Positions 1 to 25,161 of a stretch of 57,875 bases of DNA are shown here, one piece after another. A program made the translations under genes and the position numbers. Positions within the stretch are counted from its first letter, which is position 1. Each line of letters opens with the position of its first letter. Where the stretch lies: assembly GCA_024278935.1 (NCBI GenBank), contig JAJRSF010000055.1, forward strand, positions 1-57,875, in the 5' to 3' direction. Below the pieces are notes generated by a model. The model made no database searches, was not told the origin of the DNA, and was given only the letters and a program-made list of their open reading frames with translations. This DNA comes from Candidatus Zixiibacteriota bacterium. GTDB taxonomy: Bacteria > Zixibacteria > MSB-5A5 > GN15 > FEB-12.

Positions 1-648
1 ATTACATTCCGAGCTACCGACCCGGGAACACTATGGTCTGATGACCCTGCTACATTCACCGTCACAGCACAAAACGATCCACCTGTTGTAACTGATATTC
101 CGAACCAAACTATTTCTGAGGGGAACTCTTTTACAACAATAACTCTCGACAATTTTGTTTCCGATGTTGACAATATTGATTCCGACATGACTTGGACATT
201 TTCTGGAAACACAGAACTGATAGTTGACATTACTAATCGAATCGCCACTATCACAACACCGAATGGTTCATGGACAGGTGCCGAAACGATTACATTCCGT
301 GCCACTGACCCGGGAGCGTTATGGTCTGACGACCCTGCGACATTCACCGTCACAGCACAAAACGATCCACCTGTCGTAACTGACATTCCAAATCAGACAA
401 TCGCCGAAGGTGCTTCTTTTACAACTATCACACTTGATAATTTTGTCTCCGACCCTGATAATGCTGACGCTGAAATGACATGGACATACACAGGCAACAC
501 AGAACTTCTCGTTGATATTACAAATAGAATCGCAACTATCACAACACCAAACGCAGACTGGAATGGTGCCGAAACTATTACATTCCGTGCCACCGACCCG
601 GGAGCGTTATGGTCTGAAGACCCTGCGACTTTCACAGTCACCGCACAA
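1..648 (+). repeat. 288-bp tandem coding repeats (Ig-like units)
   Basis: Two complete units (73-360 and 361-648) and the end of a third (1-72) repeat with a period of exactly 288 bp, or 96 codons. Each unit starts at an Asn-Asp pair and runs through 'IPNQTI', 'NFVSD', 'TITTPN' and 'ATDPG'. The near identity at DNA level implies recent duplication, and the array probably continues upstream of the window. Confidence 0.9.
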
Positions 649-3600
649 AATGATGCACCTACGTTGACAAATTCTACGACTGCTGTCTCTATTTCACCTG
701 TGAACAGAATTGATGCCAACTCGACTATCATCTCGGCAACATTTACAGACATTGACCAACCATCGATAAATAGTTTTAATATCACTTTCAAAACTAGAGA
801 ACCTAATAATTCAACTGAACTTATTCTCGTAAATAATCTCACGCATGGCAATGGTGGGTTGACCGTAGTCGACAATGGTTCCGGTTCTTACACTGCATCT
901 TATTCTTACAATCCATTAGATGGGCAGACCCTTGGATTGTATGATTTATATTTTGAAGCTTTTGATGGCACAGCATCTGTTATAGATGATTTTACAAGTA
1001 ACATAGATGAACTCGAGATAATTGAAATAATAGCCAACGAAGCACCGATTATCACAGCATCGGCAATTTCTGTTTCTCCCCCATCAATTGATAGGGCGGG
1101 AGCAATCAGTACTGCATTTACAATTCCGTTTTCCGATTCAGACATCCCTGCAGTAACAAGTTTTCTTATCACTTTAACAGTACGGGCGCCATTTAATGAA
1201 TCTGTAATTCCACTTTTAGAAAGTTCCGCTCATGGACAAAACGGACTGACCATAATAGACAACGGCGGAGGATCTTTTACGGCAAGTTATTCATGGGACC
1301 CTGCTGATAATATCACAGTTGGGTACTACGATCTATCAGTGATTATTTCAGATGGTTCCGCATCGGACACTGATTTCTTTGATGACAACTCGGACGAACT
1401 TCTTATATCAAATGGTGGTGAAAACTCGGCACCTATTATCGCATCGGATGCATCGTATGCAACTCCGGCAGGAGTTGAACGAATAGGTCTGAACCCTACT
1501 ACTATCGGTTCTCAATTTTTAGATGCTGACCTTCCGGGCGTGAATGCTTTTATAGTCAATATCAGGTTACGCGAACCTGATAATTCTACTGAAATTATTT
1601 TAGCAACTAACGCAACCAATGGTACCCAAGGTATAACAATAACTGATGAAGGTTCCGGTATCTACAGAGTTGAGACGTCATGGGACCCACCCGATGCTCA
1701 GACCCTCGGATTTTATGATATATTTATTTCTATCTCTGACGGAAGCCTGACATCGACTGATGATTACGCAAACAACACCGACGAACTAGAAATATATGAT
1801 GCCATTTCCAATAGTATACCAACTGTCATAGCAGGTGCTACTGCTGTTTCACCGATTTCTGTTAACAGAATTGGTTCTGAGTTTACAACTGTATCAGCAG
1901 AATTTTCCGATGATGATTTCCCTGGGGCAGGTGCGTTTACAGTCACTATAAAATTACAAGAGCCTGATAATTCAACTGAAATTATTTTAGCCAACGCTGC
2001 GAAACATACCGAACAAGGTGTTAGAATCAGCCATGTCTCAGGTTCAACTTACCGGGCATCTGTATTATGGGATCCGCCTGAAATACAAAATACGGGCGTG
2101 TACGATTTATATTTTTACGTCGAAGATAATTTTACTGCTTCAGCTCTCGACGATTTCACAAACAACTCCGATGAGTTAACAGTTACATCGTCAGCAATAG
2201 CAGGCGATGGAAGACTTCTGCGGAGAACTCATGATTCTGACAACTGTGGTGGATCTGCTTCGGCTTGTCATAATGTTTTGGATCATTCAGGGCAAAATTG
2301 TTTAGTCTGTCACACAGCACACAATACAACAAATATTTATATGATACGTGAAACAATCTCAACTCCTAGCTCAGGAGACCGACCTGTTCTATTTAAAACA
2401 ATAGGTACCGGTGACCCATACAACGATCCTGACCCGGTAGTTGGTGATGGAACTTCAGGAGCAATGGCCGATGATACCGATGGCACCCATACAGGTGTTT
2501 GTGAAGTCTGTCATACATCGACAACTCATCATAACAATGATGATACCCATACATCGCAAGGTCATAATAATGCAACCAGTTGTATTTCTTGTCATCCGCA
2601 CTCCGAAGGATTTGCTGTTTCTGGAGGTGGTGAATCATCCGGTGGCTCATCCTGTTCATGTCATGCATCATTTTTTGACCCGATGAGTTCATCAACTTCG
2701 ACCTATCATCACATGTTAACCAGCTCCGACCCTGACTATACTATTTCATCAAAAACGTGTCTGATGTGTCATGTTGACCATGATATTTTCAGACCTGATT
2801 TAAATACAGGATTTGGTAATCGTGGAAGTAACTTACGAGCATCAGTAAATATTACTCCGACACAGGGAAATTCTACCAGCTTATCTAATTCGGATTATTC
2901 GGCAACCGGCGATGGTGGCATCTGTCTTTCTTGTCATACATCTGTTCAGACAAAAGGATATATACATCCCGATGGTACTACAGAAACTTTAGTCATTAAT
3001 AAAACAAGTTTTGATGGAGCTACTTCAAGTCATAACTATTCTGTTCCGACTTCATTCACAACTGACGGTTCGACAATGAATGGTAATTGCATAAAATGTC
3101 ATACAGATAATTTTGCACAAAGCTATCAAGACCCTGCCAACCCATTTGGCATGCATAATTCAGACTTTAGTAAATTCTTGTCTCCGCTTGGCATAGTATC
3201 TCCAACTGATCCGCTTGAAGAAAAAATGTGTTATCAATGTCACTCGACAACATCAAATCCAAATGCCGGAAGCAGTCAGGACTACTATGGTGTGAAAGCG
3301 ATGAGTGCTGCGGCTCTGAGAATTGAAGATGCCTTTAACCGTACCAATGCGCACCCAATAACTAATTCGGGTCTGCATAATTCTTATAATGAATCAGCCG
3401 CTGATTTAGCAGACGGTAACCGCCATGCTGAATGTGCCGATTGCCATGTAGTTCATGAAGCTGTCCAGGGAACTCATGACGGCTCATCACAGCTTGTTTC
3501 AAACGCTCTTAAGGGTGTATGGGGAGTTGAGCCTACATCGTGGCCAGCAGCACCATCACCATCAGATAATGCCAATGTTTTTGCTGCACCTGCAGGATAT

Positions 3601-4290
3601 AATAAAGTTGAGCCTGCTCAAAACGAATATCAGATATGCCTCAAATGCCACTCTGACTATACAACTCTTCCGACTGGTTCCCGTAATATTGCTGAAGAGA
3701 TTAACCCGAACTATCCATCAACACATGGCATAACAATCGCAAATCAGAATCCGTTCTGTAATACTACAACAATGTTTGAACCTTGGGGTTCAAGTGGTTC
3801 AACATATTGTTCTGACTGCCATCGGTCTGATGTAGCTACCGACCCTGAAGGTCCACATGGCTCCAATGCCGACCACCTTCTGGTAGCAACGATCGTATCC
3901 GATGATGCTGTTGGAACACCTCTATGTAATGTATGCCATCGACCTTCTACTTATTGGGATGGTTCTGCGGCTGCCAGCCGTTATGATCAACATCCTGCTA
4001 CTAAAGGTGCTCACCAACTTGCCCAGGGTTGTTTTGCATGCCACATGTGGGACTATGCAAGTACAGCAGGTTTGGGTGTTACTACAACTTTTTGGAATGG
4101 CGGTAATCCTGATTACAAAATCTTTGTCCACGGACAAAACAAGGTTTGGAATTTTAATGATGAAGATGGTTCAGCCGGTACTGGACAACCTGTTGATGCT
4201 TTTGTGAATGGTATGCTAGCAAATGTTGATTTTACGAACAAACAATGTTGGTCTGAAGTCTGTAAAACTCACTCCGGTACAGGATATTAA
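1..4290 (+). CDS. Giant multiheme c-type cytochrome with Ig-like repeats (5' end outside window)
   Basis: The frame is open from base 1, so the true start and signal peptide lie upstream; the first ATG, at 187, is internal. The visible part has 1429 residues. Bases 1-648 encode nearly identical 96-residue Ig/cadherin-like units, and 649 to about 2200 encode four diverged units of roughly 130 residues with recurring 'REPDNSTEIIL' and 'YDLYF' motifs. From 2245 to the end is a heme domain with 12 CxxCH motifs (first at 2299, last at 4030). Three further cysteine motifs are not canonical: CX6CH at 2245, a C-x-C-H motif near 2650, and C-x4-C-x2-H at the extreme C-terminus (from 4246). The architecture suggests a secreted or surface electron-transfer protein. 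A complete paralogue lies at 43825-47238. The ResB/CcsA maturation genes start 10 bases downstream. Confidence 0.9.
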   Translation: MTFRATDPGTLWSDDPATFTVTAQNDPPVVTDIPNQTISEGNSFTTITLDNFVSDVDNIDSDMTWTFSGNTELIVDITNRIATITTPNGSWTGAETITFRATDPGALWSDDPATFTVTAQNDPPVVTDIPNQTIAEGASFTTITLDNFVSDPDNADAEMTWTYTGNTELLVDITNRIATITTPNADWNGAETITFRATDPGALWSEDPATFTVTAQNDAPTLTNSTTAVSISPVNRIDANSTIISATFTDIDQPSINSFNITFKTREPNNSTELILVNNLTHGNGGLTVVDNGSGSYTASYSYNPLDGQTLGLYDLYFEAFDGTASVIDDFTSNIDELEIIEIIANEAPIITASAISVSPPSIDRAGAISTAFTIPFSDSDIPAVTSFLITLTVRAPFNESVIPLLESSAHGQNGLTIIDNGGGSFTASYSWDPADNITVGYYDLSVIISDGSASDTDFFDDNSDELLISNGGENSAPIIASDASYATPAGVERIGLNPTTIGSQFLDADLPGVNAFIVNIRLREPDNSTEIILATNATNGTQGITITDEGSGIYRVETSWDPPDAQTLGFYDIFISISDGSLTSTDDYANNTDELEIYDAISNSIPTVIAGATAVSPISVNRIGSEFTTVSAEFSDDDFPGAGAFTVTIKLQEPDNSTEIILANAAKHTEQGVRISHVSGSTYRASVLWDPPEIQNTGVYDLYFYVEDNFTASALDDFTNNSDELTVTSSAIAGDGRLLRRTHDSDNCGGSASACHNVLDHSGQNCLVCHTAHNTTNIYMIRETISTPSSGDRPVLFKTIGTGDPYNDPDPVVGDGTSGAMADDTDGTHTGVCEVCHTSTTHHNNDDTHTSQGHNNATSCISCHPHSEGFAVSGGGESSGGSSCSCHASFFDPMSSSTSTYHHMLTSSDPDYTISSKTCLMCHVDHDIFRPDLNTGFGNRGSNLRASVNITPTQGNSTSLSNSDYSATGDGGICLSCHTSVQTKGYIHPDGTTETLVINKTSFDGATSSHNYSVPTSFTTDGSTMNGNCIKCHTDNFAQSYQDPANPFGMHNSDFSKFLSPLGIVSPTDPLEEKMCYQCHSTTSNPNAGSSQDYYGVKAMSAAALRIEDAFNRTNAHPITNSGLHNSYNESAADLADGNRHAECADCHVVHEAVQGTHDGSSQLVSNALKGVWGVEPTSWPAAPSPSDNANVFAAPAGYNKVEPAQNEYQICLKCHSDYTTLPTGSRNIAEEINPNYPSTHGITIANQNPFCNTTTMFEPWGSSGSTYCSDCHRSDVATDPEGPHGSNADHLLVATIVSDDAVGTPLCNVCHRPSTYWDGSAAASRYDQHPATKGAHQLAQGCFACHMWDYASTAGLGVTTTFWNGGNPDYKIFVHGQNKVWNFNDEDGSAGTGQPVDAFVNGMLANVDFTNKQCWSEVCKTHSGTGY

Positions 4291-4300: not shown

Positions 4301-5371
4301 ATGAAAATTAATCTCGCTTCTACAAGATTAGCATTTTTCTTAATTGGACTACTTTTATCTCTGATTGTTATTTCTGCAATTATTCCACAAAAGGAATTAG
4401 CAGAAAATCAAATTATCGACTGGCATGAACTGCTTGGCGACAATTATGTCATTATTGAAAAACTCAAACTCGACCAAATCTATGAGACACCATACTTTTT
4501 TATCGTTATAGGTTTACTGGCATTGAATCTTATATTCGGTAATATTAAACGGTTTAAAATAATTTATAAAACTGACAAAACGCTTATTAAGGCTCGTCAT
4601 ATTGGTTCAATAATATTTCATCTCTCACTCGTGTTGATAATGGTTGGCGTCATATTAAATTATCTTTACAAATTCGATGGAGCCTTAGCTCTTATAGAAG
4701 GACAGTCGGTCGTAGACAATGAGCATATATATTCACATATTTACAAAGGTCCCCTCTTTGAAGATTCTTATAAGCGGTTTGAGATCAAACATGTTAAATT
4801 CCTTACCGACTATGAATTAAATAACACTCCCACCAATGCCTGCGAAAGATCTGTAAAAGAAAATCAAATCGCACGGGAGCAAAAAAAGATTATAACAACA
4901 AACTTTCCTTTTTCATACTTAGGATTGGAATTTCACTTTGACCAAAAATTCGGATACGCACCAGAACTTGTTTTTATAGATTCCAGCAACACAGCAATTT
5001 TTAAAAGTTTTATCCGTATTGCTATACAGGAACATCCCGGTCAGGCAAAACATCTCGATTATTATATTATTCCGAATACAAATCATAGGGTAACAATTGA
5101 AGTTTTCCCGAAGAATAACTCCATTGACTCCACCCTTTATAAGTTATTAGTTGAAAAAGATGATATATTGTTGTATGAAGATACAGTACGAACCGGTGAT
5201 ACAGCTTACTTTCAGAATTATAAAGTAGTTATCCCACGGTTGAGAAACTGGTGTTATATCAATGTTGTAAAAAGCCCGTTTTTGACTCTGATTTTTACAA
5301 GTTTTTGGTTGGCACTTATTGGAATGACAATCGGACTTATTCCGCGTGTGATAGGAACTGATAAAAAATGA
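4301..5371 (+). CDS. resB: ResB/Ccs1-like cytochrome c biogenesis protein
   Basis: Predicted 356-residue membrane protein with hydrophobic segments near residues 8-30, 63-80, 101-122 and 322-349 and a large extracytoplasmic region between the third and fourth. This is the ResB/Ccs1 layout of System II cytochrome c maturation, in which ResB and CcsA together move heme across the membrane and attach it to CxxCH apoproteins. It is at the short end for the family. The start lies 10 bases after the multiheme cytochrome stop, and the 3' end overlaps ccsA by 4 bases (ATGA), so translation is probably coupled. The position directly after a multiheme cytochrome suggests a dedicated maturation pair. 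Family assignment rests on topology, 'GSIIFHLSLVLIMVG' and the adjacent ccsA. Confidence 0.85.
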   Translation: MKINLASTRLAFFLIGLLLSLIVISAIIPQKELAENQIIDWHELLGDNYVIIEKLKLDQIYETPYFFIVIGLLALNLIFGNIKRFKIIYKTDKTLIKARHIGSIIFHLSLVLIMVGVILNYLYKFDGALALIEGQSVVDNEHIYSHIYKGPLFEDSYKRFEIKHVKFLTDYELNNTPTNACERSVKENQIAREQKKIITTNFPFSYLGLEFHFDQKFGYAPELVFIDSSNTAIFKSFIRIAIQEHPGQAKHLDYYIIPNTNHRVTIEVFPKNNSIDSTLYKLLVEKDDILLYEDTVRTGDTAYFQNYKVVIPRLRNWCYINVVKSPFLTLIFTSFWLALIGMTIGLIPRVIGTDKK

Positions 5372-6189
5372 ATGCAACCGAAGCTCTCTTTTTTTGGTCA
5401 ACGACTCTCTTTTTGGCTATGACTTTTTTTATTGTCTTATTAGCACTCATGTTTAAAAAAGAGAATGTTTTTAAATATGCTAACTATTCTCTTCTGACCG
5501 CATTTGCCACTCTTTCAACTTTTGGCATTCTGCGTTGGACACTCACCGGACACCCGCCCTTTGTGACGCTCTTTGAGTCGATGATTACTTCGATCTGGTT
5601 TGTCCTTCTATTTTTTATCCTGCTTTTGAAATTTAATAAAAAAACTGTCCTGCTTATTCTACCTGTTTCGACTATAACATTTCTTATGATGGGCTGGGCA
5701 TCATCGCTTTCATCGGAAGCATCCGAGCTTTCTGCCGCTCTTACAAATATCTGGCTCTTTATCCACGCATCGTTTGCAACAGCAGGGGCATCGTCGTTTT
5801 TAATCGGGGCATCGTTTTCAATTCTCTATTTATTAGGCGAAGAGAAATTAAAATCGTATGAACGGATTGCTCCTAAAGTTCCTGAGTTTAAAAACCTGTC
5901 GAAAATGATTCTAAACTTTCTTATCTTTGGTCTGATTCTCTGGGGTGTCATGATTGTCTCCGGGGCAATCTGGGCGCATATTGCATGGGGACGCTACTGG
6001 GCATGGGACCCGATTGAACTTTGGTCGCTGATCAGTTGGCTTCTGTTTGGCTTGGTGATACATACAAAAATAACTTTCAAAATATCCCAAAACTTGTTTT
6101 GCAAATTAACAATTATTGCAGCGGCAACTGTTGTTTTTGCTCTCTGGGGTGTTGGCTATATTTATAACACGATTCATACTTATGGGTGA
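5368..6189 (+). CDS. ccsA: CcsA/ResC-type heme lyase subunit
   Basis: Predicted 273-residue polytopic membrane protein with about eight hydrophobic segments. The tryptophan-rich signature 'WGRYWAWDPIELW' lies near residues 207-219 and is the heme-handling WWD motif of the CcmC/CcsA/ResC family. Conserved histidines near the flanking helices ('IWLFIHASFA', 'LVIHTKI', 'NTIHTYG') fit the axial heme ligands known for the family. It works with ResB in System II cytochrome c maturation. The start overlaps resB by 4 bases, and the stop overlaps the next gene, so the genes form an operon. Confidence 0.93.
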   Translation: MNATEALFFWSTTLFLAMTFFIVLLALMFKKENVFKYANYSLLTAFATLSTFGILRWTLTGHPPFVTLFESMITSIWFVLLFFILLLKFNKKTVLLILPVSTITFLMMGWASSLSSEASELSAALTNIWLFIHASFATAGASSFLIGASFSILYLLGEEKLKSYERIAPKVPEFKNLSKMILNFLIFGLILWGVMIVSGAIWAHIAWGRYWAWDPIELWSLISWLLFGLVIHTKITFKISQNLFCKLTIIAAATVVFALWGVGYIYNTIHTYG

Positions 6190-6548
6190 TACAGATGTTT
6201 AATGTTTTTCTTATGCTTTCAAATTATTTCCATGACCTCTCGGTTGCATTACTTGCATCAAACATCTGTGTAGTCTATTTTTTAGGTCAATTCCTTGACG
6301 AGAATCAAGGCAAACACGATAAAATTAGTTACGTTTTTAATAAGTTAAAAATAGTAACATACTGGGCTTTTGCCTATGTCATGTTTGGTGGTCTACTCAG
6401 AGCGATTTATTTCTTCGATTTTGAATACCACCCGGCAGTTGGTAAAGGGCAGATAACGGCACTTATAGTAAAGCATATCTTTTTATTTGCGATAACGATT
6501 TTTGGCATCTTAGGACATAGAAAGTATCAGAAAAAATATGGAAACTAA
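6186..6548 (+). CDS. Small integral membrane protein of unknown function
   Basis: A 120-residue protein with about four hydrophobic segments (roughly residues 5-32, 58-78 and 86-108) and short polar ends. I do not recognise the family. The GTG start at 6186 overlaps the ccsA stop (GTGA); an ATG at 6195 is an equally plausible start. The 3' end overlaps the radical SAM gene by 11 bases. Its place inside the resB-ccsA operon suggests a role in heme or cytochrome handling at the membrane, but that is inference from context only. Confidence 0.7.
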   Translation: MIQMFNVFLMLSNYFHDLSVALLASNICVVYFLGQFLDENQGKHDKISYVFNKLKIVTYWAFAYVMFGGLLRAIYFFDFEYHPAVGKGQITALIVKHIFLFAITIFGILGHRKYQKKYGN

Positions 6549-8058
6549 AAGAAGAAGAAAAATAATCTTTGTCACGCCACATTATCATTGTGGTGTTGTT
6601 GAAGTCGCTGGGACATGGCCGCCACTTGGTTTTGTCTACCTCGGTGCTCAAGCAAAAAAAGCGGGTTGGGATGTTGAAGTATATGATGTCATGTCTTTAC
6701 ATCATAAGCCAAAGCAGATTAAAAAACATTTCAAAGAAAATCCATTCGATGTTATGGCAACAACTGCAATTACACCGACTTATCTCGACGCCCTAGAACT
6801 CTGCGAATTTGCCAAAGAGATATACCCAGAATGCACAACTCTCATGGGTGGAGTGCACCCGACATTTTCATATAAAGAAATATTTGAAGATGAGAACTCT
6901 CCGCTTGATTATATTATTGCCGGTGAAGGGGAACTTCCTCTGTTTAATTTTCTTTCAAACTTTGAAGATAAAAAATTGCGACATAAAACTTCGAATCTGT
7001 TTTTCAAAGAAGATGGTCAGATAAAACTGAACCCGTTAAGAGCACTTGTCGAAGACTTGGATACTCTTGAAACTGATTTCTCATTACTCGACTGGTCAAT
7101 TTATAAATACCATGTCATCGATGACTCCCGCTTGGGAGCTATCTCTACCTCTCGTGGATGTACCTTTGGTTGTACATTCTGTTCGCAACAACGGTTCTGG
7201 AACACAACTTGGCGAGGACGTAAACCTGAAGCAATTTTAGCAGAGCTTGAACATCTCTACAAAACTTTTGATATAAATGTTTTTCTCTTCACTGATGAAT
7301 ACCCAACTTTGGAACAAGACCGTTGGGAAAAGCTGCTTGATTTGATTATCGCATCACCGATGGAAATATATATTTTAATTGAAACAAGAGTCGAAGATAT
7401 CGTTCGTGATGAAGCGTTCCTTTGGAAATACCGCAAAGCGGGAATCGTGCATGTCTATGTTGGTGCCGAGGCTACCGATCAGGAAATTTTAGATAAGATA
7501 AATAAAGAAATCACAGTAGATGATTCCAGGCGGGCGATTGAACTAATTTCCGAGCATGACATGCTTTCGGAAACATCATTTGTCTTAGGCTTCGCAGAAG
7601 AGACTGCAGAATCTATCGAACGAACTTTTGAACAAGCCAAAGCTATGAACCCTGATTTTGCTCATTTTTTGGCAATCACACCATGGCCGTATTCTGAATT
7701 TTATAAAGAAGTAAAAGACAAAATTGAAATTTATGATTACCGTCAATATAATTTGATTGAACCGATTATTAAACCTGACAATATGACCCTCCGTGATATT
7801 GATCTGGCAATCATAAATTGTTATCGGAAATTCTATATGCCGAAAATGGCAGGCTTCTATAGTGTCAAAGATGAGTTCAAGAAAACTTATCTTATAAAAT
7901 CTATGAAACTGATTATGAAATCATCGTTCTTGATTAAGAAATTTGCAAAACTCGGTATCAACCCGGTTGAGATGATGGAAAAAATGTTTAAGAAGAACAA
8001 AGGGAAACATCCGCAAATGCCACCGGAGATGCCCCCACATTCTCATTCGGACAGCTAG
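6538..8058 (+). CDS. B12-binding-domain radical SAM protein
   Basis: A 506-residue protein with an N-terminal cobalamin-binding-like domain (about residues 20-140, including 'PPLGFVYLGAQAKKAGWDV' and 'MGGVHPTFSY'), then a radical SAM core with C208-x3-C212-x2-C215 ('CTFGCTFC') for the 4Fe-4S cluster. The arrangement matches the BchE/P-methylase-like class, whose members do oxidative cyclisation or methylation with SAM and B12. The C-terminus is rich in Pro, Met and His. The start overlaps the previous gene by 11 bases. The substrate is unknown; position in a cytochrome c maturation operon hints at a tetrapyrrole or cytochrome-related reaction. The last four bases (CTAG) are shared with the convergent pirin gene. 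Confidence 0.88.
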   Translation: METKRRRKIIFVTPHYHCGVVEVAGTWPPLGFVYLGAQAKKAGWDVEVYDVMSLHHKPKQIKKHFKENPFDVMATTAITPTYLDALELCEFAKEIYPECTTLMGGVHPTFSYKEIFEDENSPLDYIIAGEGELPLFNFLSNFEDKKLRHKTSNLFFKEDGQIKLNPLRALVEDLDTLETDFSLLDWSIYKYHVIDDSRLGAISTSRGCTFGCTFCSQQRFWNTTWRGRKPEAILAELEHLYKTFDINVFLFTDEYPTLEQDRWEKLLDLIIASPMEIYILIETRVEDIVRDEAFLWKYRKAGIVHVYVGAEATDQEILDKINKEITVDDSRRAIELISEHDMLSETSFVLGFAEETAESIERTFEQAKAMNPDFAHFLAITPWPYSEFYKEVKDKIEIYDYRQYNLIEPIIKPDNMTLRDIDLAIINCYRKFYMPKMAGFYSVKDEFKKTYLIKSMKLIMKSSFLIKKFAKLGINPVEMMEKMFKKNKGKHPQMPPEMPPHSHSDS

Positions 8059-8753
8059 TTTAAATCAAAAAGTAGAAATTCGGAATCCTTTTGTGCTGTT
8101 ATTTGAAGCAAAGACTCGTCTGTAATCGCGATACCGTCACCCGTTGAAACGGTACTGCCATTTAGCTTCACACTGCCGTCTACGACCTGAACCTAAATAT
8201 TTCTTCCTGCATTAATTAGAAATTCAATACTCTTCTCTTTTTGCAATAGAGAAAGGTATAGCGATACATCCTGATTTATTTTGACCGCACTTTGTGTCGG
8301 CTTGTTTGATGCAAGCAATAAAAAATTATTCACAGCTTTTGTGCGGTCATAAGATTTCTGTTCATACGAAGGTGTTAATCCTTTTTTGTCGGGAAAAATC
8401 CAAATTTGGTATAAGTGAACATATTCGGTATCGGAAGCATTAAATTCTGAATGCATAATACCTGTTCCTGCTGTCATCCGCTGAATCTCACCTTTTTGTA
8501 TAATAGAGCCATTACCAAGTGAATCCTCATGCTTTAAACTGCCTGAATGGATAAATGTAATGATTTCCATATCGTTGTGCGGATGAGTCCCAAACCCGCC
8601 CGATGGAGCGATAAAATCATCGTTTATGACCCGTAAGTGCCTGAAATGTACATGTTTTGGGTCATGGTAATTGCTAAATGAAAATGAATGATGGCTTTGT
8701 AGCCATCCAAGATTGGTCTCACCCCGATCATTTGCTTTTCTAATCTGTATCAT
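8055..8753 (-). pseudogene. Pirin family protein (YhaK-like), interrupted by one in-frame TAG
   Basis: Residues 1-186 are a clear pirin/YhaK-type bicupin, with the metal-binding 'HPHNDME' and 'AGTGIMHSE' motifs. The frame meets a TAG at 8193-8195, after 'NAGRNI', and then continues without further disruption for 45 codons ('VQVVDGSVKLNG' to 'SEFLLFDLN') to a natural stop at 8055. This tail is what pirin C-termini look like; family members have an aromatic residue where the TAG sits. Total length without the TAG is 231 residues, the normal family size. The first part alone could still fold as the N-terminal cupin. Either a recent nonsense mutation or a sequence error would explain it. A MarR gene and a perfect palindrome lie upstream. 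Confidence 0.88.
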
Positions 8754-8771
8754 AACAGTTCCTTTTTAGCC

Positions 8772-8789
8772 TAGTTTAACGTTAAACTA
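8772..8789. promoter_or_regulatory. Perfect 18-bp palindrome, probable MarR operator
   Basis: TAGTTTAACGTTAAACTA is a perfect 18-bp inverted repeat between the MarR gene and the pirin start, 19 bases upstream of the pirin ATG. Size and position fit a MarR-dimer operator controlling the pirin gene, in a common marR-pirin arrangement. The assignment to this regulator is inference. Confidence 0.65.
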
Positions 8790-8831
8790 TATAACCAAAA
8801 ACAGACTGTTTTTGTTCCCACTCCTATTTTT

Positions 8832-9302
8832 TTATACTAATTGCTTTGTTGCACCTACACCAAGTTTTTTACACAAGTTGCCAAGCTGTTCTTGTTCTTC
8901 ATTTGAAAGAACCGACATCTCAGAAACCAATATTTCAAGATGTTCTGAGAATACTTTTGTAATCAGCTCATCGCCTTGTGGAGTCAAACGAATCGAGTAG
9001 TATCTTCTATCATCTTCATCCTGTTGGCGAACGACAAGGTTTCGTTTTGATAAATTTTCAATAACCGTAGTCAGGTTCCCCGATGTTTTTAAGACTTTGC
9101 TTGCTATCTCTTTTTGACAAAGCGTACCAAGATGATACAGCACTTCTAATACCTGGAATTGACTCAGGCTTAAATTGAATTCGGCAATATGTTTGTGGGT
9201 ACGTGTCGTAAACGAATCAGTACCACGCAAAAGTTTTACAAAAGTTTGTAGAACTCTTTCTTCGCTTTCGCCGTAGGTTTTTCTTTTCATCTTCTTTTGC
9301 AT
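8832..9302 (-). CDS. MarR family transcriptional regulator
   Basis: A 156-residue protein with the MarR winged-helix layout: N-terminal dimerisation helices, 'LSLSQFQVLEVLYHLG', the recognition region 'QKEIASKVLKTSGNLTTVIENL', and the wing with 'DEDDRRYYSIRLTPQG', which carries the typical DxRxxxxxLTxxG pattern. Members of this family usually repress genes for redox, phenolic or oxidative-stress responses and release DNA on ligand binding or cysteine oxidation. It lies upstream of pirin on the same strand with a perfect palindrome in the gap. The start could be the ATG at 9302 or the one at 9290; neither has a strong ribosome binding site. Confidence 0.92.
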   Translation of the reverse strand: MQKKMKRKTYGESEERVLQTFVKLLRGTDSFTTRTHKHIAEFNLSLSQFQVLEVLYHLGTLCQKEIASKVLKTSGNLTTVIENLSKRNLVVRQQDEDDRRYYSIRLTPQGDELITKVFSEHLEILVSEMSVLSNEEQEQLGNLCKKLGVGATKQLV

Positions 9303-13620: not shown

Positions 13621-14199
13621 TTACGACAACACTATAGTTTTGACACCCTTAGCATCCGTCAAGACACACGCCTCTTCACAAATCCCACACCCGGTACACG
13701 TTTCATCGTTTATCACAGGCTTATTGAATTTCATTTTGATCGCATCCCGTTTTAAGGGACAGGCATCATAACAGGTCATACAACTCTGACCATTGTAAGG
13801 CAGACATTTATCTTCGACAATTTGTGCAAGACCTATCTTAGGAAATATCATATCTTTCGGAGTTACAAGTGCATTACGCTCACATACTTTTGTACAGAGA
13901 ATTTCATCGCACATAATACATGCTTTTTCAGATGGTACAATAATCGGAAGGTTCTTCCCGGTTAGCTCATCTGGCGAAAACTTGATACAACTTACCGGAC
14001 AGACAGAAATGCAATCCCCACAAGACTCACATCTGCTTTGAAAATCATCAATAGCACCCGGTGGGTAGATCTCTTTTTTTGGGTTGAGAATTTTATCGGG
14101 CAGTTTTTTCTGAATAGATTCAGCAAAAATGCCACCTATCATCTGAAATGATTTTTTGAGGAAGTTTGATCTTGAAGTCATAGGGAGAATGTAATGCAT
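13621..14199 (-). CDS. NapG/NapF-like 4Fe-4S ferredoxin protein, last gene of the nap operon
   Basis: A 192-residue protein with four cysteine clusters of the MauM/NapG type: 'CESCGDCISVCPVSC', 'CIMCDEILCTKVC', 'CMTCYDACP' and 'CTGCGICEEAC'. It resembles NapG (15536-16183) throughout, including 'PPGAI' before the first cluster, but its N-terminus reads 'MTSRSNFLKKS', without a twin arginine, so it is probably not Tat-exported and may act in the cytoplasm like NapF. The ATG at 14199 overlaps the base of a hairpin, so the ATG at 14181 is an alternative start; neither has a clear ribosome binding site. Confidence 0.82.
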   Translation of the reverse strand: MHYILPMTSRSNFLKKSFQMIGGIFAESIQKKLPDKILNPKKEIYPPGAIDDFQSRCESCGDCISVCPVSCIKFSPDELTGKNLPIIVPSEKACIMCDEILCTKVCERNALVTPKDMIFPKIGLAQIVEDKCLPYNGQSCMTCYDACPLKRDAIKMKFNKPVINDETCTGCGICEEACVLTDAKGVKTIVLS

Positions 14200-14226
14200 T
14201 GGCGGGGTTTACACAACCCCGCCAAT
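14198..14226. other. Perfect hairpin between napB and the terminal ferredoxin gene
   Basis: ATTGGCGGGGTT pairs perfectly with AACCCCGCCAAT around a 5-base loop, giving a 12-bp GC-rich stem in an AT-rich region. It lies between the napB stop and the start of the ferredoxin gene, with no U-run after it on the minus strand. It may set the relative expression of the two genes by processing or partial termination, or hide the 14199 start codon. Confidence 0.8.
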
Positions 14227-14238
14227 CATATTTCAATA

Positions 14239-14628
14239 TTAATTTGGCACATGTTTAATAAAGTAGTTATCTACTTTAAAATCGTCACCTTCAGCTGTTT
14301 CTTCAGCGGCAGGAATATGACACTGCATACAAACGTGACGTTCAGGATGTAGTGTTTGAGGAACATCTACCTCATCTTTGTTATAATGACACTCCAAGCA
14401 AATTTCTCCACCATTTTCAGAGGCTATAACATCATCACCAATTACGATTGGATGTTCAGCAGGAATCAATGGTGGTGCACCAAATGATGCTACGTTATCA
14501 TGAGTTACTAACTCAAGATTTAATTTCTGTTCATCGGTGAGCGGGGCATTACTTTTTTCTTCTCCCTGACATGCTATAAGCATCGATAAAAGTAATAACA
14601 CGCTCATGAAAGCGATAAAATGTTTCAT
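14239..14628 (-). CDS. napB: NapB-like diheme cytochrome c, predicted lipoprotein
   Basis: A 129-residue protein with a lipoprotein signal ('LLLSMLIAC', Cys20) and two CxxCH motifs, 'CLECH' and 'CMQCH', spaced as in NapB, with 'HPERHVCMQCHIP' matching the region around the second heme. NapB passes electrons to NapA. It is shorter than typical NapB and, unlike the soluble textbook protein, appears to be lipid-anchored. GGAG lies 9 bases before the ATG, and the start overlaps the napH stop by 4 bases. Confidence 0.87.
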   Translation of the reverse strand: MKHFIAFMSVLLLLSMLIACQGEEKSNAPLTDEQKLNLELVTHDNVASFGAPPLIPAEHPIVIGDDVIASENGGEICLECHYNKDEVDVPQTLHPERHVCMQCHIPAAEETAEGDDFKVDNYFIKHVPN

Positions 14629-15539
14629 GAAACATTCTCCTTCTTTATTTTTAAACTAATTTTTAATGCGTTTTCAGGACAAATATCTATACAATTTAAA
14701 CAATTTGTACACGAGCTATCAATTACCCAGTTGGTCGAACCTTGCACCGGTGCGATAAGAACATTCGACGGTAAACAGACATCAAAACATTCATTGCACT
14801 GAGTACAAGCGACATGGTCGATTTTGATTTTAACCGGAGAAAATTTTCCAAGCAAAGTATAAAAAGTACCAACAGGACAAGCATGTCGACACCACCATCC
14901 TTTACTATAGAAAAGATCAATCAGTAAAATCAAAGCAATCAGCCAGAGCGAACTGTTAAACAGAATTTGCCAATCATAATAACTGTCAGACATCAGCGAC
15001 GATGTATAACCGCTGTTTTCAATATTATCAGATGATGTCAACTCTTTCCCAAATTGAGCCTGTGATTGGTCAACGCCTAAAGCAATATTCTGACTGATAA
15101 TTCCGATTGGAGAAATCAGTTCAAAAACAGGCTTTGATGTTATCACGCTCAGGAGCAAAAAGATAACAAAAATATAATATTTAAATGATGCCGACGGTTT
15201 CATATTTAAAACAGCAAATCTGTCATGTAACTTTGCCGTAAACTCTGACAACCAATAGATAGGACAAACCCATCCGCAAAAAACTCTTCCACCAACAATA
15301 AAATAAAACACGGCTACAATTAATCCACCAATCACTAATGGCAGATAAAATGTTTTTGCTGCCAACATAAAATCTATCGCAGCAAATGGGTCTACCAACA
15401 AGATAGAAAACAGCTCACCCGAAATAAGAGTACCTCGGAAAACAGACAGTTTCAACAATGGAGACAGAAGTAAAAGGATTACGCTAAATTGCACAAACCT
15501 TCTTAAAATCCGCCATTTGTTTTGAGCTATCTTGTTCAT
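14625..15539 (-). CDS. napH: NapH, quinol-dehydrogenase membrane component
   Basis: A 304-residue protein with about four to five hydrophobic segments, the NapH cytoplasmic motifs 'CGWVCPIYWL' and 'CRHACPVGTFY', and two C-terminal ferredoxin clusters ('CTQCNECFDVC' and 'CTNCLNCIDICP'). With NapG it forms a quinol-oxidising unit that delivers electrons to NapB and NapA. No napC is present, so NapGH is probably the only quinol route to this nitrate reductase. Its start overlaps the napG stop (ATGA). Confidence 0.92.
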   Translation of the reverse strand: MNKIAQNKWRILRRFVQFSVILLLLSPLLKLSVFRGTLISGELFSILLVDPFAAIDFMLAAKTFYLPLVIGGLIVAVFYFIVGGRVFCGWVCPIYWLSEFTAKLHDRFAVLNMKPSASFKYYIFVIFLLLSVITSKPVFELISPIGIISQNIALGVDQSQAQFGKELTSSDNIENSGYTSSLMSDSYYDWQILFNSSLWLIALILLIDLFYSKGWWCRHACPVGTFYTLLGKFSPVKIKIDHVACTQCNECFDVCLPSNVLIAPVQGSTNWVIDSSCTNCLNCIDICPENALKISLKIKKENVS

Positions 15540-16183
15540 GACTTCTGCTCCCGAAGTAAGATATAGTGAGCAGCTTTGTCACCTCGTTCGGTTGGTAACA
15601 CTGTAATCGCTGTTTTATCAAGTGGACATGCATTTTCGCAAATTCCACAACCGGTACAGAATTCTTTATGAATGACTGGTTCAAAAACAGTATGTTTTTT
15701 TGTTATTGATTGTTGATGCTTATCAAGAGTTATCGCTTTGTTTGTCAATGGGCAAACTCGATAACAAATTTCACAACGGATTCCATTTAACGAAAGGCAG
15801 GCTTCCCTATCGGTGATAACAGCAGTACCCATATTTGATTTATTGACATCTTTCAAATCATGGTTTAGAGCTGTTGTTGGACAGGCAGTGATGCAAGGAA
15901 TATCAGCACACATCTGACAAGGCACTTCACGGAAATCAATATACGGCGTACCGATATTGAGACCATCTTCAAGTGACCCAAGTTTCAGAGTGTCGTACGG
16001 ACAATCCTGCACACACTTGCCACACCTGATACAAGCCGATAAAAATTGGTTCTCTTCAATTGCACCGGGAGGTCTAAAATAATGTTTCTTATTACTCCCA
16101 AGCAGACTGACAAAAGAGAAGCCACCGGTTATACCTACGGTAGAAAATGCTACTGATCGTTTTATAAAATCTCGTCGTTTCAT
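15536..16183 (-). CDS. napG: NapG, Tat-exported ferredoxin
   Basis: A 215-residue protein that begins 'MKRRDFIKRSVAFSTVG', a twin-arginine signal, and has four Fe-S clusters of MauM/NapG type: 'CIRCGKCVQDCP', 'CQMCADIPCITACP', 'CEICYRVCP' and 'CTGCGICENACP'. It accepts electrons from NapH on the outer face of the membrane and passes them on to NapA/NapB. Its stop overlaps the napH start. Confidence 0.93.
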   Translation of the reverse strand: MKRRDFIKRSVAFSTVGITGGFSFVSLLGSNKKHYFRPPGAIEENQFLSACIRCGKCVQDCPYDTLKLGSLEDGLNIGTPYIDFREVPCQMCADIPCITACPTTALNHDLKDVNKSNMGTAVITDREACLSLNGIRCEICYRVCPLTNKAITLDKHQQSITKKHTVFEPVIHKEFCTGCGICENACPLDKTAITVLPTERGDKAAHYILLREQKS

Positions 16184-16235
16184 ATTTTCAATCTCACTCT
16201 CTAATTCTCATAGAGAGTGAGTTCTTTTTATTTCG

Positions 16236-18725
16236 TTATGCTTTCTCGATTGTAACAGCACATTTTTTATAATCAGGTTCTTTTGAAATCGGATCATAAC
16301 AATCAAGAGTTATTTTATTAACCAAACGGGTTTCATCAAAGAACGGAATAAAGACCATTCCTTTTTGAGGAACCGTACGTCCGTTCACATCAGCTGGGAA
16401 TACAACTTCACCACGACGTGATTTGACACGAATCAAATCACCACGGACAATGCCCATACGTTTAGCATCATCAGGATTAATATTGACAACCGCTCTTGGA
16501 ACAGCTCTGCGTAATTCAGGAACACGCATAGTCATCGAACCGGTATGCCAATGTTCAAGCACACGGCCGGTACATAACCAGAATGGATAATCTTTATCTG
16601 GCTCTTCAGCAGCTGGTTCGTATGGAACCGCAAAAACTGTTGCACGGTAATCAGATTTAGATGCCTTATAAAAAGCGATACCATCTTTGAATGTACGTTC
16701 AGGATGGTCTTTGATAAACTTGGCAGCATAAGGATCATACTTAGCGTTGTAACGCCATTTTACCGAGACATAATCGCTTGCTTCGGTGTTTTCAATATCT
16801 GCCCAAACATCTGTGAAATCCGTTTTGTCATTTTTGGCAACATACGGCCAGACAACACCATGTTTTTCTCTTAAGACATCATAAGGAGCTAAATCTTTGG
16901 CACGTCCAACGGAGAATGAACGATATTCTTCCCACATATCTTTGTACATGGTAGCTTCGTTAAAGTTAAAAATCTTATCGGCAACAGTAGTATTGGCGTC
17001 GATTTTTAAACGTTTGGCAACTTCAATCATCTGCCAGATTTCATTTTTGGCATCACCGGGTGAAGTCACAATTTCATTCCAATGCTGGGTACGTCTTTCA
17101 GCGTTACCAAAAGCACCTTCTTTTTCAATCCACATTGCTGATGGTAAAATAACATCGGCAACTTCGGTTGAACGAGTAGGGTATACATCGGAAACAATTA
17201 TGAAGCAATCTTTTTCGATGGCAGCTTTTGTAAACCGGTTTAAGTTCGGAAGCGATTGGAATGGATTTGCTGCTTGGACCCATAATAATTTGATTGAACC
17301 ATTATCGATTGCTCTAAACATTTCGATAGTATGTAAACCGACTTTTGGATTAATCTTATCAACCGGGATTTTCCAGATATCGGCAGCAATCTTACGATGT
17401 GCTTCTACTTTAACAACTAAATCGGCAGGAAGACGATGTACAAAAGTTCCTACTTCACGAGCTGTACCACAAGCAGACGGTTGACCGGTGAGAGAGAAAG
17501 GTCCCTGTCCCGGTTTAGAAATTTTACCTGTAAGCAAATGGATAGAATAGACAAGCTGATTAACCCATGTGCCACGAGTATGCTGATTAAAACCCATTGT
17601 CCAATATGAGACAACTTTACGGTTTGGATCAGAAATCAGTTTGGCAGCTTCTTCAAGTTTGTCAATTGGAACGCCCGAGATTTTTGAGGCATACTTAGCA
17701 TCAAAACCGGCTACAAATTTTTTATAATCTTTAAAAGAAATCTTCGTCATTTTACCGGCAGTTTTCGGAATATCTTTTCCGCCATCTAAAAGACCATAGC
17801 CAATATTGGTTTCACCTTTTTTAAATACTAAATTATCATTTACAAATTCTTCGTCGTACAATTTGTTTTTGATAGTGTAATGGATAAAATAATTGGCGAT
17901 TGCTAAATCTGTCTGCGGTTTGAATTCTAAATAAAGATCAGACTCTTCAGATACACGGGTAAACTGTGTTCCCAAATCAATAATCTTCACTTTATCAGGG
18001 TTCTTCATTTTTGTATCCATGATACGTGAGAACAAGACAGGATGCATCTCTGCCATGTTTGCTCCCCAAGTGAAGAATGTATCGGCATGTTCCAAATCTT
18101 CATAGGAACCCATAGGTTCATCAGATTGGAAAGTCCGCATAAACGCTGCCACAGCTGACGCCATACACATACGGGCGTTTGGATCTAAGTTGTTAGAACC
18201 GACACCATCTTTTGAGATAAAGCCTAAACCGGCTTTCATAAATTTAAGAGCAGCGTACCCTTCAAAAATTGTCCACTGACCGGAACCAAACATAGAGACA
18301 GCATCGGAGCCGTCACGTTTGAGAATTTCTTCATACTTTGATGCGATCAAGTCGAGAGTTTCATCCCATGATGATTCGACCATTTTACCATTTTTGCGAA
18401 TCATTGGTTTAGTTAAACGATCTTTACCATATAAAATCTTTGAAAGGAAATATCCTGTCACACAGTTGAGACCTTTGTTTGACCAACAATCCGGGTCACC
18501 TTTGGTAGCAACAACTGTATCATCTTTTTTACCAACCAGAACACCGCAACCGGTACCACAGAAACGACAAACTGCTTTGTCCCATGTAATTCCAAGTTGA
18601 TCAACTTTGCCATCAACAGCAGTTGAATTGTCTCCTTCTTTCTTCCCACAGGAAGCAACAAGCGAGGCAACCGCAAGCGATGCTGCCGACGATTTAATAA
18701 AATCCCTACGATCCAAGGTACTCAT
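16236..18725 (-). CDS. napA: NapA, periplasmic nitrate reductase catalytic subunit, Tat-lipoprotein type
   Basis: A molybdopterin oxidoreductase of the NapA family. With the start at 18725 it has 829 residues; GGAG lies 9 bases upstream, and another ATG at 18740 would add five residues. The 'RRDFIK' Tat motif is followed by a lipobox-like 'LVASC' (Cys26), so it may be lipid-anchored. The 4Fe-4S site starts at Cys53 ('CRFCGTGCGVLVG'), the Mo-ligand Cys lies in 'ARMCMASAVAAFMRTF', and 'GANMAEMHPVLFSRI' is typical of NapA rather than formate dehydrogenase. It reduces nitrate to nitrite with a bis-MGD cofactor that the divergent mob/moa operon would help make. Confidence 0.95.
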   Translation of the reverse strand: MSTLDRRDFIKSSAASLAVASLVASCGKKEGDNSTAVDGKVDQLGITWDKAVCRFCGTGCGVLVGKKDDTVVATKGDPDCWSNKGLNCVTGYFLSKILYGKDRLTKPMIRKNGKMVESSWDETLDLIASKYEEILKRDGSDAVSMFGSGQWTIFEGYAALKFMKAGLGFISKDGVGSNNLDPNARMCMASAVAAFMRTFQSDEPMGSYEDLEHADTFFTWGANMAEMHPVLFSRIMDTKMKNPDKVKIIDLGTQFTRVSEESDLYLEFKPQTDLAIANYFIHYTIKNKLYDEEFVNDNLVFKKGETNIGYGLLDGGKDIPKTAGKMTKISFKDYKKFVAGFDAKYASKISGVPIDKLEEAAKLISDPNRKVVSYWTMGFNQHTRGTWVNQLVYSIHLLTGKISKPGQGPFSLTGQPSACGTAREVGTFVHRLPADLVVKVEAHRKIAADIWKIPVDKINPKVGLHTIEMFRAIDNGSIKLLWVQAANPFQSLPNLNRFTKAAIEKDCFIIVSDVYPTRSTEVADVILPSAMWIEKEGAFGNAERRTQHWNEIVTSPGDAKNEIWQMIEVAKRLKIDANTTVADKIFNFNEATMYKDMWEEYRSFSVGRAKDLAPYDVLREKHGVVWPYVAKNDKTDFTDVWADIENTEASDYVSVKWRYNAKYDPYAAKFIKDHPERTFKDGIAFYKASKSDYRATVFAVPYEPAAEEPDKDYPFWLCTGRVLEHWHTGSMTMRVPELRRAVPRAVVNINPDDAKRMGIVRGDLIRVKSRRGEVVFPADVNGRTVPQKGMVFIPFFDETRLVNKITLDCYDPISKEPDYKKCAVTIEKA

Positions 18726-18750
18726 TTTCCTTGACTCCATTTCTTAAGAT

Positions 18751-19023
18751 TTAGTTCGTTATGTTTTTATATTTTTTGATTTCATCTTCAAAGAAGTGTG
18801 AAATAATTTCGACACCGGTGACACCATCAAGTCTTCTAATATCTTCCCACAAACCAACAGCATATTCTGTTGATTCAGTTTCCAAAACTACAGCTAATTT
18901 GTTTTCAGCAGTTTCAATAATTTCCATTTGTGGAACAGATGCAATTTTTTTCTCTACCGTTGCAAAATCTTTTGCTTCGGCATGAACCAAAATTGATGAT
19001 ACCACTTGGTTCTCTTTATTCAT
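18751..19023 (-). CDS. napD: NapD, NapA-signal-peptide chaperone
   Basis: A 90-residue protein matching NapD: 'VSSILVHAEAKDFATVEKKI' opens the ferredoxin-like fold, and 'LETESTEYAVGLWEDIRRLDGV' is the second half. NapD binds the NapA Tat signal and holds back export until the cofactor is inserted. First gene of the nap operon, with AGGAG 6 bases before the ATG and napA starting shortly after its stop. Confidence 0.92.
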   Translation of the reverse strand: MNKENQVVSSILVHAEAKDFATVEKKIASVPQMEIIETAENKLAVVLETESTEYAVGLWEDIRRLDGVTGVEIISHFFEDEIKKYKNITN

Positions 19024-19107
19024 TTATTCTCCTATTTGATATATCTATGCAAGTTGTTAACTGTCTACTAAATTGTCCACTAAAAAGGTTGACTCACTTG
19101 ACAATTT

Positions 19108-19123
19108 TGTGACATTTTTCACT
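19108..19123. promoter_or_regulatory. CRP/FNR-superfamily dyad, nap promoter
   Basis: TGTGA-CATTTT-TCACT fits the TGTGA-N6-TCACA pattern of CRP-like and HcpR-like regulators with one mismatch. It lies 85 bases upstream of the napD ATG. The same half-sites and spacing occur at 27219-27234 in front of the hydrogenase operon. The regulator is not identified in the window. Confidence 0.65.
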
Positions 19124-19156
19124 TGTGTTAATATCGAAAATTAGCTATTTTTTCCC

Positions 19157-19172
19157 ATTGACTTAAGTCAAT
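19157..19172. promoter_or_regulatory. Perfect FNR-like palindrome, Moco promoter
   Basis: ATTGACTTAAGTCAAT is a perfect 16-bp palindrome whose core TTGAC-N4-GTCAA follows the FNR/Dnr pattern. Its centre (19164.5) lies about 41 bases upstream of the inferred transcription start near 19205, the class II activator position. It may also act on the divergent nap promoter. Confidence 0.65.
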
Positions 19173-19228
19173 GCACAAACAGCGGAATCGCTTATTTTGT
19201 ATTGAGTTAGAAAAGAAGATATTTTTAA

Positions 19229-19320
19229 TCTCCGAACCTCGGAAGACCCACGTGGCCACCGAGGACTCTACGGCCGGAAGAGCAATTTTCCGACCTGCCC
19301 GGTTTGGCAAAGGAGACTCC
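19229..19320 (+). ncRNA. Candidate molybdenum-cofactor (Moco/Tuco) riboswitch
   Basis: A GC-rich, highly structured leader in AT-rich DNA, directly upstream of a Moco biosynthesis operon. TCTCC (19229-19233) can close on GGAGA (19312-19316); inside, CCTCGG pairs with CCGAGG around a CCACGTGG segment, CGGAA pairs with TTCCG, and TGCC pairs with GGCA. A multi-stem domain of this size in front of mobA/moaA genes fits the Moco RNA motif, which senses Moco or the tungsten cofactor and turns down its own synthesis. I cannot run a covariance search, so the class is inferred from structure and gene context. Confidence 0.65.
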
Positions 19321-19342
19321 ACGATGGACGTACTTTCGTATG

Positions 19343-19365
19343 ACCTCTGCCGACCGGTATGAGGT
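19343..19365 (+). promoter_or_regulatory. Hairpin sequestering the mobA ribosome binding site
   Basis: GAGGT at 19361-19365 is the mobA ribosome binding site (7 bases before the ATG at 19373), and ACCTC at 19343-19347 is its exact complement. The resulting hairpin is followed by TTTTTT. It could be the expression platform of the upstream riboswitch, by blocking ribosome binding or, less likely with 5 bp, by terminating transcription. Confidence 0.6.
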
Positions 19366-19372
19366 ATTTTTT

Positions 19373-19942
19373 ATGGAACGAACTGACATACAAGCATTTG
19401 TACTCGCTGGCGGTCAAAGCAGCCGTGCCGGGTATGATAAACTGCTCACTGCAATCAACAAAACAACGCTGGTTGAGAAAACAATTTCGGCTTGCGACGG
19501 CATGTTCTGTTCAGTATCATTGGTAGCCAAATCAGCAGAAAAATATGGTAATCTCCCAGTAACAACTCTGATTGATTCTGAACTCGCCGATGGACCGATG
19601 GCAGGCATAATCACCGCCTTGGAAAACTGCGATTCTGAATTCTGTTTTATAACCGCTGCTGATTTATACGATTTAGATAAAAATGTAATAACTGAAATAC
19701 TTCAAGCCTACACAAACGAACAGTTTTTAGGAGCAGAAATAAATAACCGCATCCAACCGCTCTGTGCTATCTATCACAAATCTTGTCTACCTCTGATAGT
19801 TGAAACAGCGAAGTCAGGTAATTACAAAATGCGTGATTTTCTCAAACAGGTAGATTCCAAATTTATTCCGCTCACTATCTCCCCTTGGAGAAATGTCAAT
19901 TACCACGAAGATTTTGAGTCGATTCGGAGTGAACATGTATAG
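19373..19942 (+). CDS. mobA: MobA, molybdenum cofactor guanylyltransferase
   Basis: A 189-residue nucleotidyltransferase. The N-terminal 'VLAGGQSSRAGYDKLL' is the family's GTP-binding loop, usually LAGGxSxRMGxDK, here with Ala in place of Met. 'ELADGPMAGIITALE' and 'ITAADLYDLD' follow as in MobA. It attaches GMP to molybdopterin to make MGD, the cofactor type of NapA. The start at 19373 is chosen for the GAGGT ribosome binding site; an earlier in-frame ATG at 19304 would lie inside the riboswitch. First gene of the Moco operon. Confidence 0.9.
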   Translation: MERTDIQAFVLAGGQSSRAGYDKLLTAINKTTLVEKTISACDGMFCSVSLVAKSAEKYGNLPVTTLIDSELADGPMAGIITALENCDSEFCFITAADLYDLDKNVITEILQAYTNEQFLGAEINNRIQPLCAIYHKSCLPLIVETAKSGNYKMRDFLKQVDSKFIPLTISPWRNVNYHEDFESIRSEHV

Positions 19943-20438
19943 CATCGCAATAGTCGGAGCAAAAAATTCTGGTAAGACAACCCTGATGGAAAAACTTCTG
20001 CAAGGTTTGACTGCTCAAGGCATCAGATGTATGTCTAAAAAGCATACTTCACATCATCATCAGTTTGACACTGTCGGTAAAGATTCCGAACGTCATCGCA
20101 AAGCAGGTGCCAATCTTACTATGGCGACAAACCCGGGTGAATTTGCAATTTTTTCAATAACCAATGATTCTCTCCAAGAAAAGATTATGAATACAATCAA
20201 TTCAGAATTTGATATCTGCCTAATTGAAGGTGATAAATTTTCCAATGTCGAAAAAGTTCTACTCACAAGAAACATAACAGAAATAGATTCTAAAAACATC
20301 GAACATATTATAGCATCGTATGGTGATGATAATTCCAAATTGACAGCGAATCATTTTGAAACGGATTCAATTGATTCTCTGGTCACATTTATTATCGCTC
20401 AAACTAAAAAGCAAACTACTGCGGGAGAACAAAAATGA
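19935..20438 (+). CDS. mobB: MobB, MGD biosynthesis GTP-binding adapter
   Basis: A 167-residue P-loop protein: 'VGAKNSGKTTLMEKLL' is the Walker A loop, and 'KHTSHHHQFDTVGKDSERHRKAGA' is the signature MobB segment. 'ICLIEGDKFSNVEKVLL' matches the family's third motif. MobB assists MobA in MGD formation. The start overlaps the mobA end by 8 bases, with GGAG just upstream; the stop overlaps the moaA start by 4 bases. Confidence 0.92.
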   Translation: MYSIAIVGAKNSGKTTLMEKLLQGLTAQGIRCMSKKHTSHHHQFDTVGKDSERHRKAGANLTMATNPGEFAIFSITNDSLQEKIMNTINSEFDICLIEGDKFSNVEKVLLTRNITEIDSKNIEHIIASYGDDNSKLTANHFETDSIDSLVTFIIAQTKKQTTAGEQK

Positions 20439-21376: not shown

Positions 21377-21377
21377 G

Positions 21378-21860
21378 ATGTCAAAACTTACTCATACTGA
21401 TTCCGACGGCAAAGCAACCATGGTCGACATTTCGCACAAGCAGGAAACTGTTCGCCAAGCAACTGTCTCGGTCAAGGTTCTTCTAAACTAAAAGACTTTT
21501 GAACTTATCCAGTCTAACAATTTAAAAAAAGGCGACGTCCTCACTGTTGCTAAAATAGCAGGGATTCAAGCTGCCAAAAAAACATCGGAGCTTATTCCTC
21601 TCTGTCATCAAGTTGCCTTAGACACCGTTGACATAAAATTTGAATTAGATAAAACGAACTCTACGATACTTATACTGGCAACATCTAAAACTTCGGCACC
21701 AACAGGTGTTGAGATGGAAGCGTTCTGTGCTGCTTCAATCGCCGCTGTCACAATTTATGATATGGTAAAAGCAGTACAAAAAGATGTTGTCATTTCAGAA
21801 CTCAAACTCTTACATAAAACAGGAGGTAAATCAGGTGAATACAAACGGACAGATTTATAA
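21378..21860 (+). pseudogene. moaC: MoaC, cyclic pyranopterin monophosphate synthase, interrupted by one in-frame TAA
   Basis: Translation from the ATG at 21378 gives a normal MoaC N-terminus ('MSKLTHTDSDGKATMVDIS', 'ETVRQATVSVKVLLN'), then TAA at 21489-21491, then the rest without further breaks: 'GDVLTVAKIAGIQAAKKT', 'LIPLCHQV', 'GVEMEAFCAAS', 'TIYDMVKAVQKD' and 'LLHKTGGKSGEYKRTDL'. Length is 159 residues plus the TAA codon, as for ordinary MoaC. All catalytic motifs lie after the stop, so the truncated product would be inactive. As the pathway needs MoaC and all neighbours are intact, a sequence error, readthrough, a second moaC copy elsewhere or re-initiation must be considered. It starts 2 bases after moaA. 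Confidence 0.9.
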
Positions 21861-23962: not shown

Positions 23963-23978
23963 AATTTAAGAAACCAAT

Positions 23979-25124: not shown

Positions 25125-25161
25125 AATTGAAACATTTACTAAATTTCTATATATTAGCTAT

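Follow-up and report, generated by a model that had tools for sequence, protein, structure and literature searches.

A B12-binding radical SAM enzyme related to BchE is encoded together with a ResB-CcsA (System II) pair and a small membrane protein (sMP), directly downstream of a multiheme cytochrome c gene, in the 57,875-nucleotide stretch of DNA that we analysed (the window). The genes are linked, and the enzyme, sMP and this type of CcsA co-occur in an all-or-none manner; the enzyme is kin to BchE, the heme exporter retains its conserved residues, and BchH is absent from all nine carrier genomes searched. We judge the chances to be about even that ResB, CcsA, sMP and the BchE-like enzyme form a dedicated second module for cytochrome c maturation, in which attachment would follow oxidation of a heme or porphyrin side chain by the enzyme.

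Organization of the locus

The features of the locus are the following.

1-4290, plus strand: multiheme cytochrome c, 12 CxxCH motifs, N-terminal Ig-like repeats (open reading frame and motif count)
2245-2271, plus strand: atypical CX6CH motif (CGGSASACH) in the cytochrome
4246-4272, plus strand: C-terminal CWx(n)CxxH of the cytochrome, candidate atypical heme site (motif comparison)
4301-5371, plus strand: ResB (CcsB-type), short form, 356 aa (PF05140)
5368-6189, plus strand: CcsA, System II heme exporter/synthase, 273 aa (PF01578, TIGR03144)
6195-6548, plus strand: sMP, small membrane protein, ~117-118 aa (alternative GTG start at 6186)
6538-8058, plus strand: BchE-like B12-binding radical SAM enzyme, 506 aa (Pfam and NCBIfam matches)

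Each of the five genes lies where the earlier note, which read them as one operon, had placed it. The cytochrome reading frame is open to base 1, with its first ATG at 187, and its 5′ end is therefore cut by the contig edge; it ends at 4290, 10 nt before ResB. Overlaps of 4 nt between ResB and CcsA (5368-5371) and of 11 nt between sMP and the radical SAM gene (6538-6548) are as previously described, but the 4-nt overlap also claimed for CcsA and sMP requires the GTG start at 6186, and alignment of homologues favors the ATG at 6195, which would give a 5-nt gap after CcsA. Ten loci were checked, including one in another phylum, and in every one the sMP and BchE-like genes overlap by 11, 14, 17 or 20 nt in a single register. 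Chance does not explain the arrangement, given this constant register and the presence of the same gene set in several families of the class. Its reading as an operon is strongly supported.

Convergent to the operon are a pirin and a MarR-type regulator (8193-9302, minus strand). Other parts of the window encode a molybdopterin oxidoreductase, Fe-S subunits, MoaA-like and MoeA proteins and a Radical_SAM_N (YgiQ-type) protein (13621-26493), as well as a nickel-iron hydrogenase large subunit, HypF, HypD and a cyclic-nucleotide-binding protein (28531-38141).

Distribution of the module

Among 132 genomes of the phylum, close homologues of the BchE-like enzyme, sMP and this CcsA are found in an identical set of 11; two more CcsA matches are weak (54 bits) and of CcmC size. 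Random draws would yield the identical set with P = 3e-16, a value that is overstated since the carriers of one phylum are related and do not count as independent genomes. Stronger evidence is that presence varies within genera (one of four genomes in the window's genus, g1, one of three in g20 and one of two in g25), which indicates that this trio has been acquired or lost jointly on several occasions. In these genomes, then, the module comes and goes as a whole.

In most carriers, across families, the gene order is cytochrome, ResB, CcsA, an NHL propeller, sMP and enzyme, with no NHL gene between CcsA and sMP in the window and in locus L047. Cytochrome homologues lie directly upstream of ResB at seven loci (L017, L046, L048, L049, L050, L053 and L098). 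CcsA is missing from the module position in L048 and sits on another contig, and in genome G114 the cytochrome stands beside a partial ResB ~100 kb away.

The earlier note had made its proposal depend on linkage beyond the source species, and such linkage is present, in 11 of the phylum's genomes as well as a Lindowbacteria genome. In the latter, which belongs to another phylum, sMP and the enzyme adjoin ResB and a homologous cytochrome; CcsA lies ~2 kb past ResB and is separated from the BchE-like gene by ~6 kb that contain other genes. Lindowbacteria was the only case outside the phylum in a genome-collection search with a one-sequence query. Matches of 235-248 bits in eight further genomes were rejected as other B12 radical SAM proteins, and the two of these neighborhoods that were inspected contain no ResB, CcsA or sMP. 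No similar loci were found in viral contigs, and no sMP on plasmids.

A relative of BchE in genomes without BchH

BchE is the anaerobic Mg-protoporphyrin IX monomethyl ester cyclase, which forms the fifth ring (E-ring) of chlorophyll; its substrate is the methyl ester made by BchM. The window enzyme matches the Pfam models Radical_SAM (1.8e-23) and B12-binding (7.5e-23) and carries CxxxCxxC at C208/C212/C215, bearing out its earlier identification as a B12 radical SAM protein. What that identification missed is a specific kinship with BchE: the top NCBIfam model is TIGR02026 (BchE), with 392.6 bits over residues 8-475, and the next family scores 115.9 bits. Relatives of the enzyme score 363-408 bits with TIGR02026, and other or unrelated B12 radical SAM proteins 203-255; a bona fide BchE, encoded in a bchE-bchJ plasmid locus, reaches 785.8 bits, and the curated cut-off is 481.35 bits. 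In a maximum-likelihood tree, eleven BchE-like sequences form one group (98/99) separate from the BchE group (98/99), in a topology whose order among groups is unresolved and in which several outgroup branches are long.

The enzyme resembles BchE in the span of its B12-binding and radical SAM domains and is ~35-38% identical to BchE proteins, but it has a shorter C-terminus and is tied to cytochrome maturation rather than to photosynthesis genes. Ninety-one positions are conserved in both the BchE-like family and BchE, and ~30 of them are seldom found in the comparison families, including YHxGxxExAGxW in the B12 domain, W383, Y404-N405 and K412-P413. The residues common with BchE may mark a porphyrin pocket.

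BchH is found in none of nine carrier genomes, and none of the nine has a BchM match over cut-off; by this search for BchH and BchM, these genomes thus give no indication of making the Mg-porphyrin substrate. An ordinary BchE of a phototroph is excluded by the sub-cut-off score together with the absence of BchH. In the open-access literature searched, no non-phototroph was reported to pair a BchE-like enzyme with multiheme cytochromes.

A second cytochrome c maturation system

ResB matches PF05140 (3.5e-25; 89.2 bits, cut-off 24.6), and its H107, invariant in nine homologues, is a candidate for TM-His2. CcsA matches PF01578 (Cytochrom_C_asm; 1.3e-27, 97.2 bits) and scores 134.8 bits with TIGR03144, short of the equivalog cut-off of 187.6. 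Its WWD motif reads WGRYWAWDP, and five histidines, including H204, H232 and H270, are invariant in nine homologues. These conserved residues of CcsA and ResB match the heme channel described for CcsBA (PMC10663686), and the pair is predicted to attach heme to cytochrome c. As in other System II (ResB/CcsB and CcsA) loci, the two genes are side by side and the WWD motif and histidines are conserved; the differences are the added BchE-like enzyme and sMP, the short ResB, and a position second to Ccm-type genes.

This last point had been overlooked in the earlier note. The genome of the window encodes CcmA, CcmB, CcmC and CcmE together, with CcmF nearby, on contig C54, and the carriers checked also have Ccm-type (System I) genes, with one exception, G036, a fragmented assembly in which the operon's CcsA was found alone with no Ccm-type match. 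Two genomes of the same genus, G002 and G003, have CcmC/CcmF-type matches only and lack this CcsA type, sMP and the BchE-like enzyme. The Ccm genes of the window's genome and the CcmC/CcmF-type matches in these module-free relatives indicate that System II is an extra; it is here a second, dedicated system, tied to the BchE-like enzyme.

The small membrane protein

Invariant residues of sMP are H16, G69, R72, E80, K96 and H97 (numbered from 6186), and a two-sequence model (pLDDT 79) predicts three helices. H16 in helix 1 and H97 in helix 3 are both 14 residues past the helix start, and because of this equal distance they are probably at the same membrane depth, where they could ligate a tetrapyrrole. 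Five of the 11 sMP members show similarity to CopD (PF05425; best E 2.4e-5), with scores of 26.8 and 25.8 bits that fall below the Pfam gathering score of 32.1. Though weakly similar to CopD, sMP is a stand-alone protein of ~118 aa tied to a BchE-like enzyme. The same model gave no Foldseek match to a known fold at E 0.001, an absence that says little for a two-sequence model, and generic helical bundles only with VIA-align; the sequence had no significant match in the PDB.

The cytochrome and its heme sites

A second 12-heme Ig-repeat cytochrome in the window (43825-47238, minus strand) is 60% identical to the first and has the same CW..CxxH tail, with no ResB, CcsA or BchE-like neighbors. 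The same genome (G000) carries a third, more distant copy on contig C63 (L097, 1963-7641). These 12-heme cytochromes all terminate in tyrosine (4285-4290 in the window, and in homologues), with or without the module. A profile of the heme domain, compared at sequence level with PDB chains that include solved nanowire cytochromes, found no match at E 0.1. The CX6CH and CXCH motifs were rejected as special sites of the module, both being present in module-free homologues.

The tail of the protein does differ. A CWx(3-11)CxxH ending is found in module-linked cytochromes, in the second copy in the window and in the Lindowbacteria protein, whereas relatives in module-free genomes and the third copy end in CYVTCHGKDH. 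CWx(n)CxxH could accordingly be read, on motif comparison, as a special heme attachment site to which the System II pair is dedicated, with the BchE-like enzyme modifying the apocytochrome and not heme, for example by hydroxylation or by a cross-link near that site. Dedicated lyases for atypical sites are established, with Wolinella NrfI and CcsA1 serving CXXCK and CX15CH (PMC6976685), and PbsB, a non-methylating B12 radical SAM enzyme, acts on peptides (PMC13142503). Like NrfI, CcsA1 and Shewanella SirE (PMC6976685), the pair described here would be one cytochrome's own lyase beside a general system, but the atypical motifs served by those lyases differ in form from CWx(n)CxxH. Modification of the apocytochrome is possible but doubtful. 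The second Cys of the tail is followed by xxH and not by H or K, leaving CWx(n)CxxH a candidate heme site, and the difference in tails comes from few, related homologues; furthermore, a dedicated lyase by itself needs no radical SAM enzyme, and the residue set common with BchE points to porphyrin. To our knowledge, no radical SAM partner is known for the dedicated lyases of atypical sites (NrfI, CcsA1, SirE).

Probable electron-transfer setting

The module stands at the end of a long locus in genomes G124, G016 and G059. The locus encodes cytochromes with 17, 9, 10, 4, 4, 7 and 5 hemes as well as NHL propellers and a protein of 713-769 aa, probably an outer-membrane barrel. Inferred from its gene content, this locus looks like a conduit for extracellular electron transfer. 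Conserved upstream of the module in L103, L104 and L105 is a long locus of this same composition, in which one propeller has a type IX secretion tail. The window's phylum and Lindowbacteria have proteins with 42 CxxCH motifs, of 1037 aa (L101, 12453-15566) and 1059 aa (L107, 1906-5085).

The module closes a large locus that encodes many multiheme cytochromes along with beta-propellers and a putative barrel, and such a position might also suit an enzyme that makes a free modified tetrapyrrole or redox cofactor instead of heme c, its linkage to CcsA and ResB reflecting common regulation; the two invariant histidines of sMP could bind such a tetrapyrrole in the membrane. This seems unlikely, in that the all-or-none tie is to CcsA and sMP, and all three genes are missing from relatives whose cytochrome locus is similar. 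It is highly improbable that the radical SAM enzyme is a chance passenger that serves some unrelated purpose: its tie to the cytochrome is a genomic one, but coincidence fits poorly with a distribution that is identical across 132 genomes, with adjacency and an overlap whose register is conserved, and with recurrence of the arrangement in another phylum.

A model for modified heme attachment

Kinship with BchE and a dedicated heme exporter favor heme or porphyrin as the substrate. BchE oxidises the 13-propionate side chain of its porphyrin via hydroxy and keto intermediates (PMC13142503). Such a reaction would spare the two vinyl groups for thioether bonds. An altered heme could therefore still be attached by CcsA/ResB, which favors modification of heme or porphyrin before export.

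The pathway that we infer, from substrate and reaction to the role of sMP and the heme sites receiving the product, would serve the large multiheme cytochrome encoded in an extracellular-electron-transfer locus. The BchE-like enzyme would work in the cytoplasm under anoxic conditions, oxidising a side chain on heme or on a porphyrin precursor; by analogy with BchE, this side chain might be the C-13 propionate. At the inner membrane face sMP might keep the tetrapyrrole or hand it over, or else supply electrons. The altered heme would then be exported by CcsA/ResB and joined to the cytochrome via its vinyl groups.

Several observations count against this model of heme or porphyrin oxidation. The cytochrome family also occurs in module-free genomes with Ccm-type genes only, G002 and G003 among the genomes that hold a relative of it despite lacking the module, and thus the module is not essential for the family overall. 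BchE residues may be common by descent without a common substrate. BchE uses a methyl ester made by BchM, for which the nine carriers gave no match over cut-off, and the distance of ~6 kb, with intervening genes, between CcsA and the BchE-like gene in Lindowbacteria also weighs against it.

Heme c is generally regarded as chemically uniform. Our analysis suggests, but does not prove, that bacteria with no sign of chlorophyll synthesis attach a chemically altered heme. More specifically, and only tentatively, we propose that these chlorophyll-less bacteria attach a new heme c, altered in its C-13 side chain by the BchE-like enzyme, to cytochromes for extracellular electron transfer through a dedicated System II exporter. 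If this is true, some electron-conducting cytochromes would carry a tuned heme, and BchE would be given a role outside photosynthesis.
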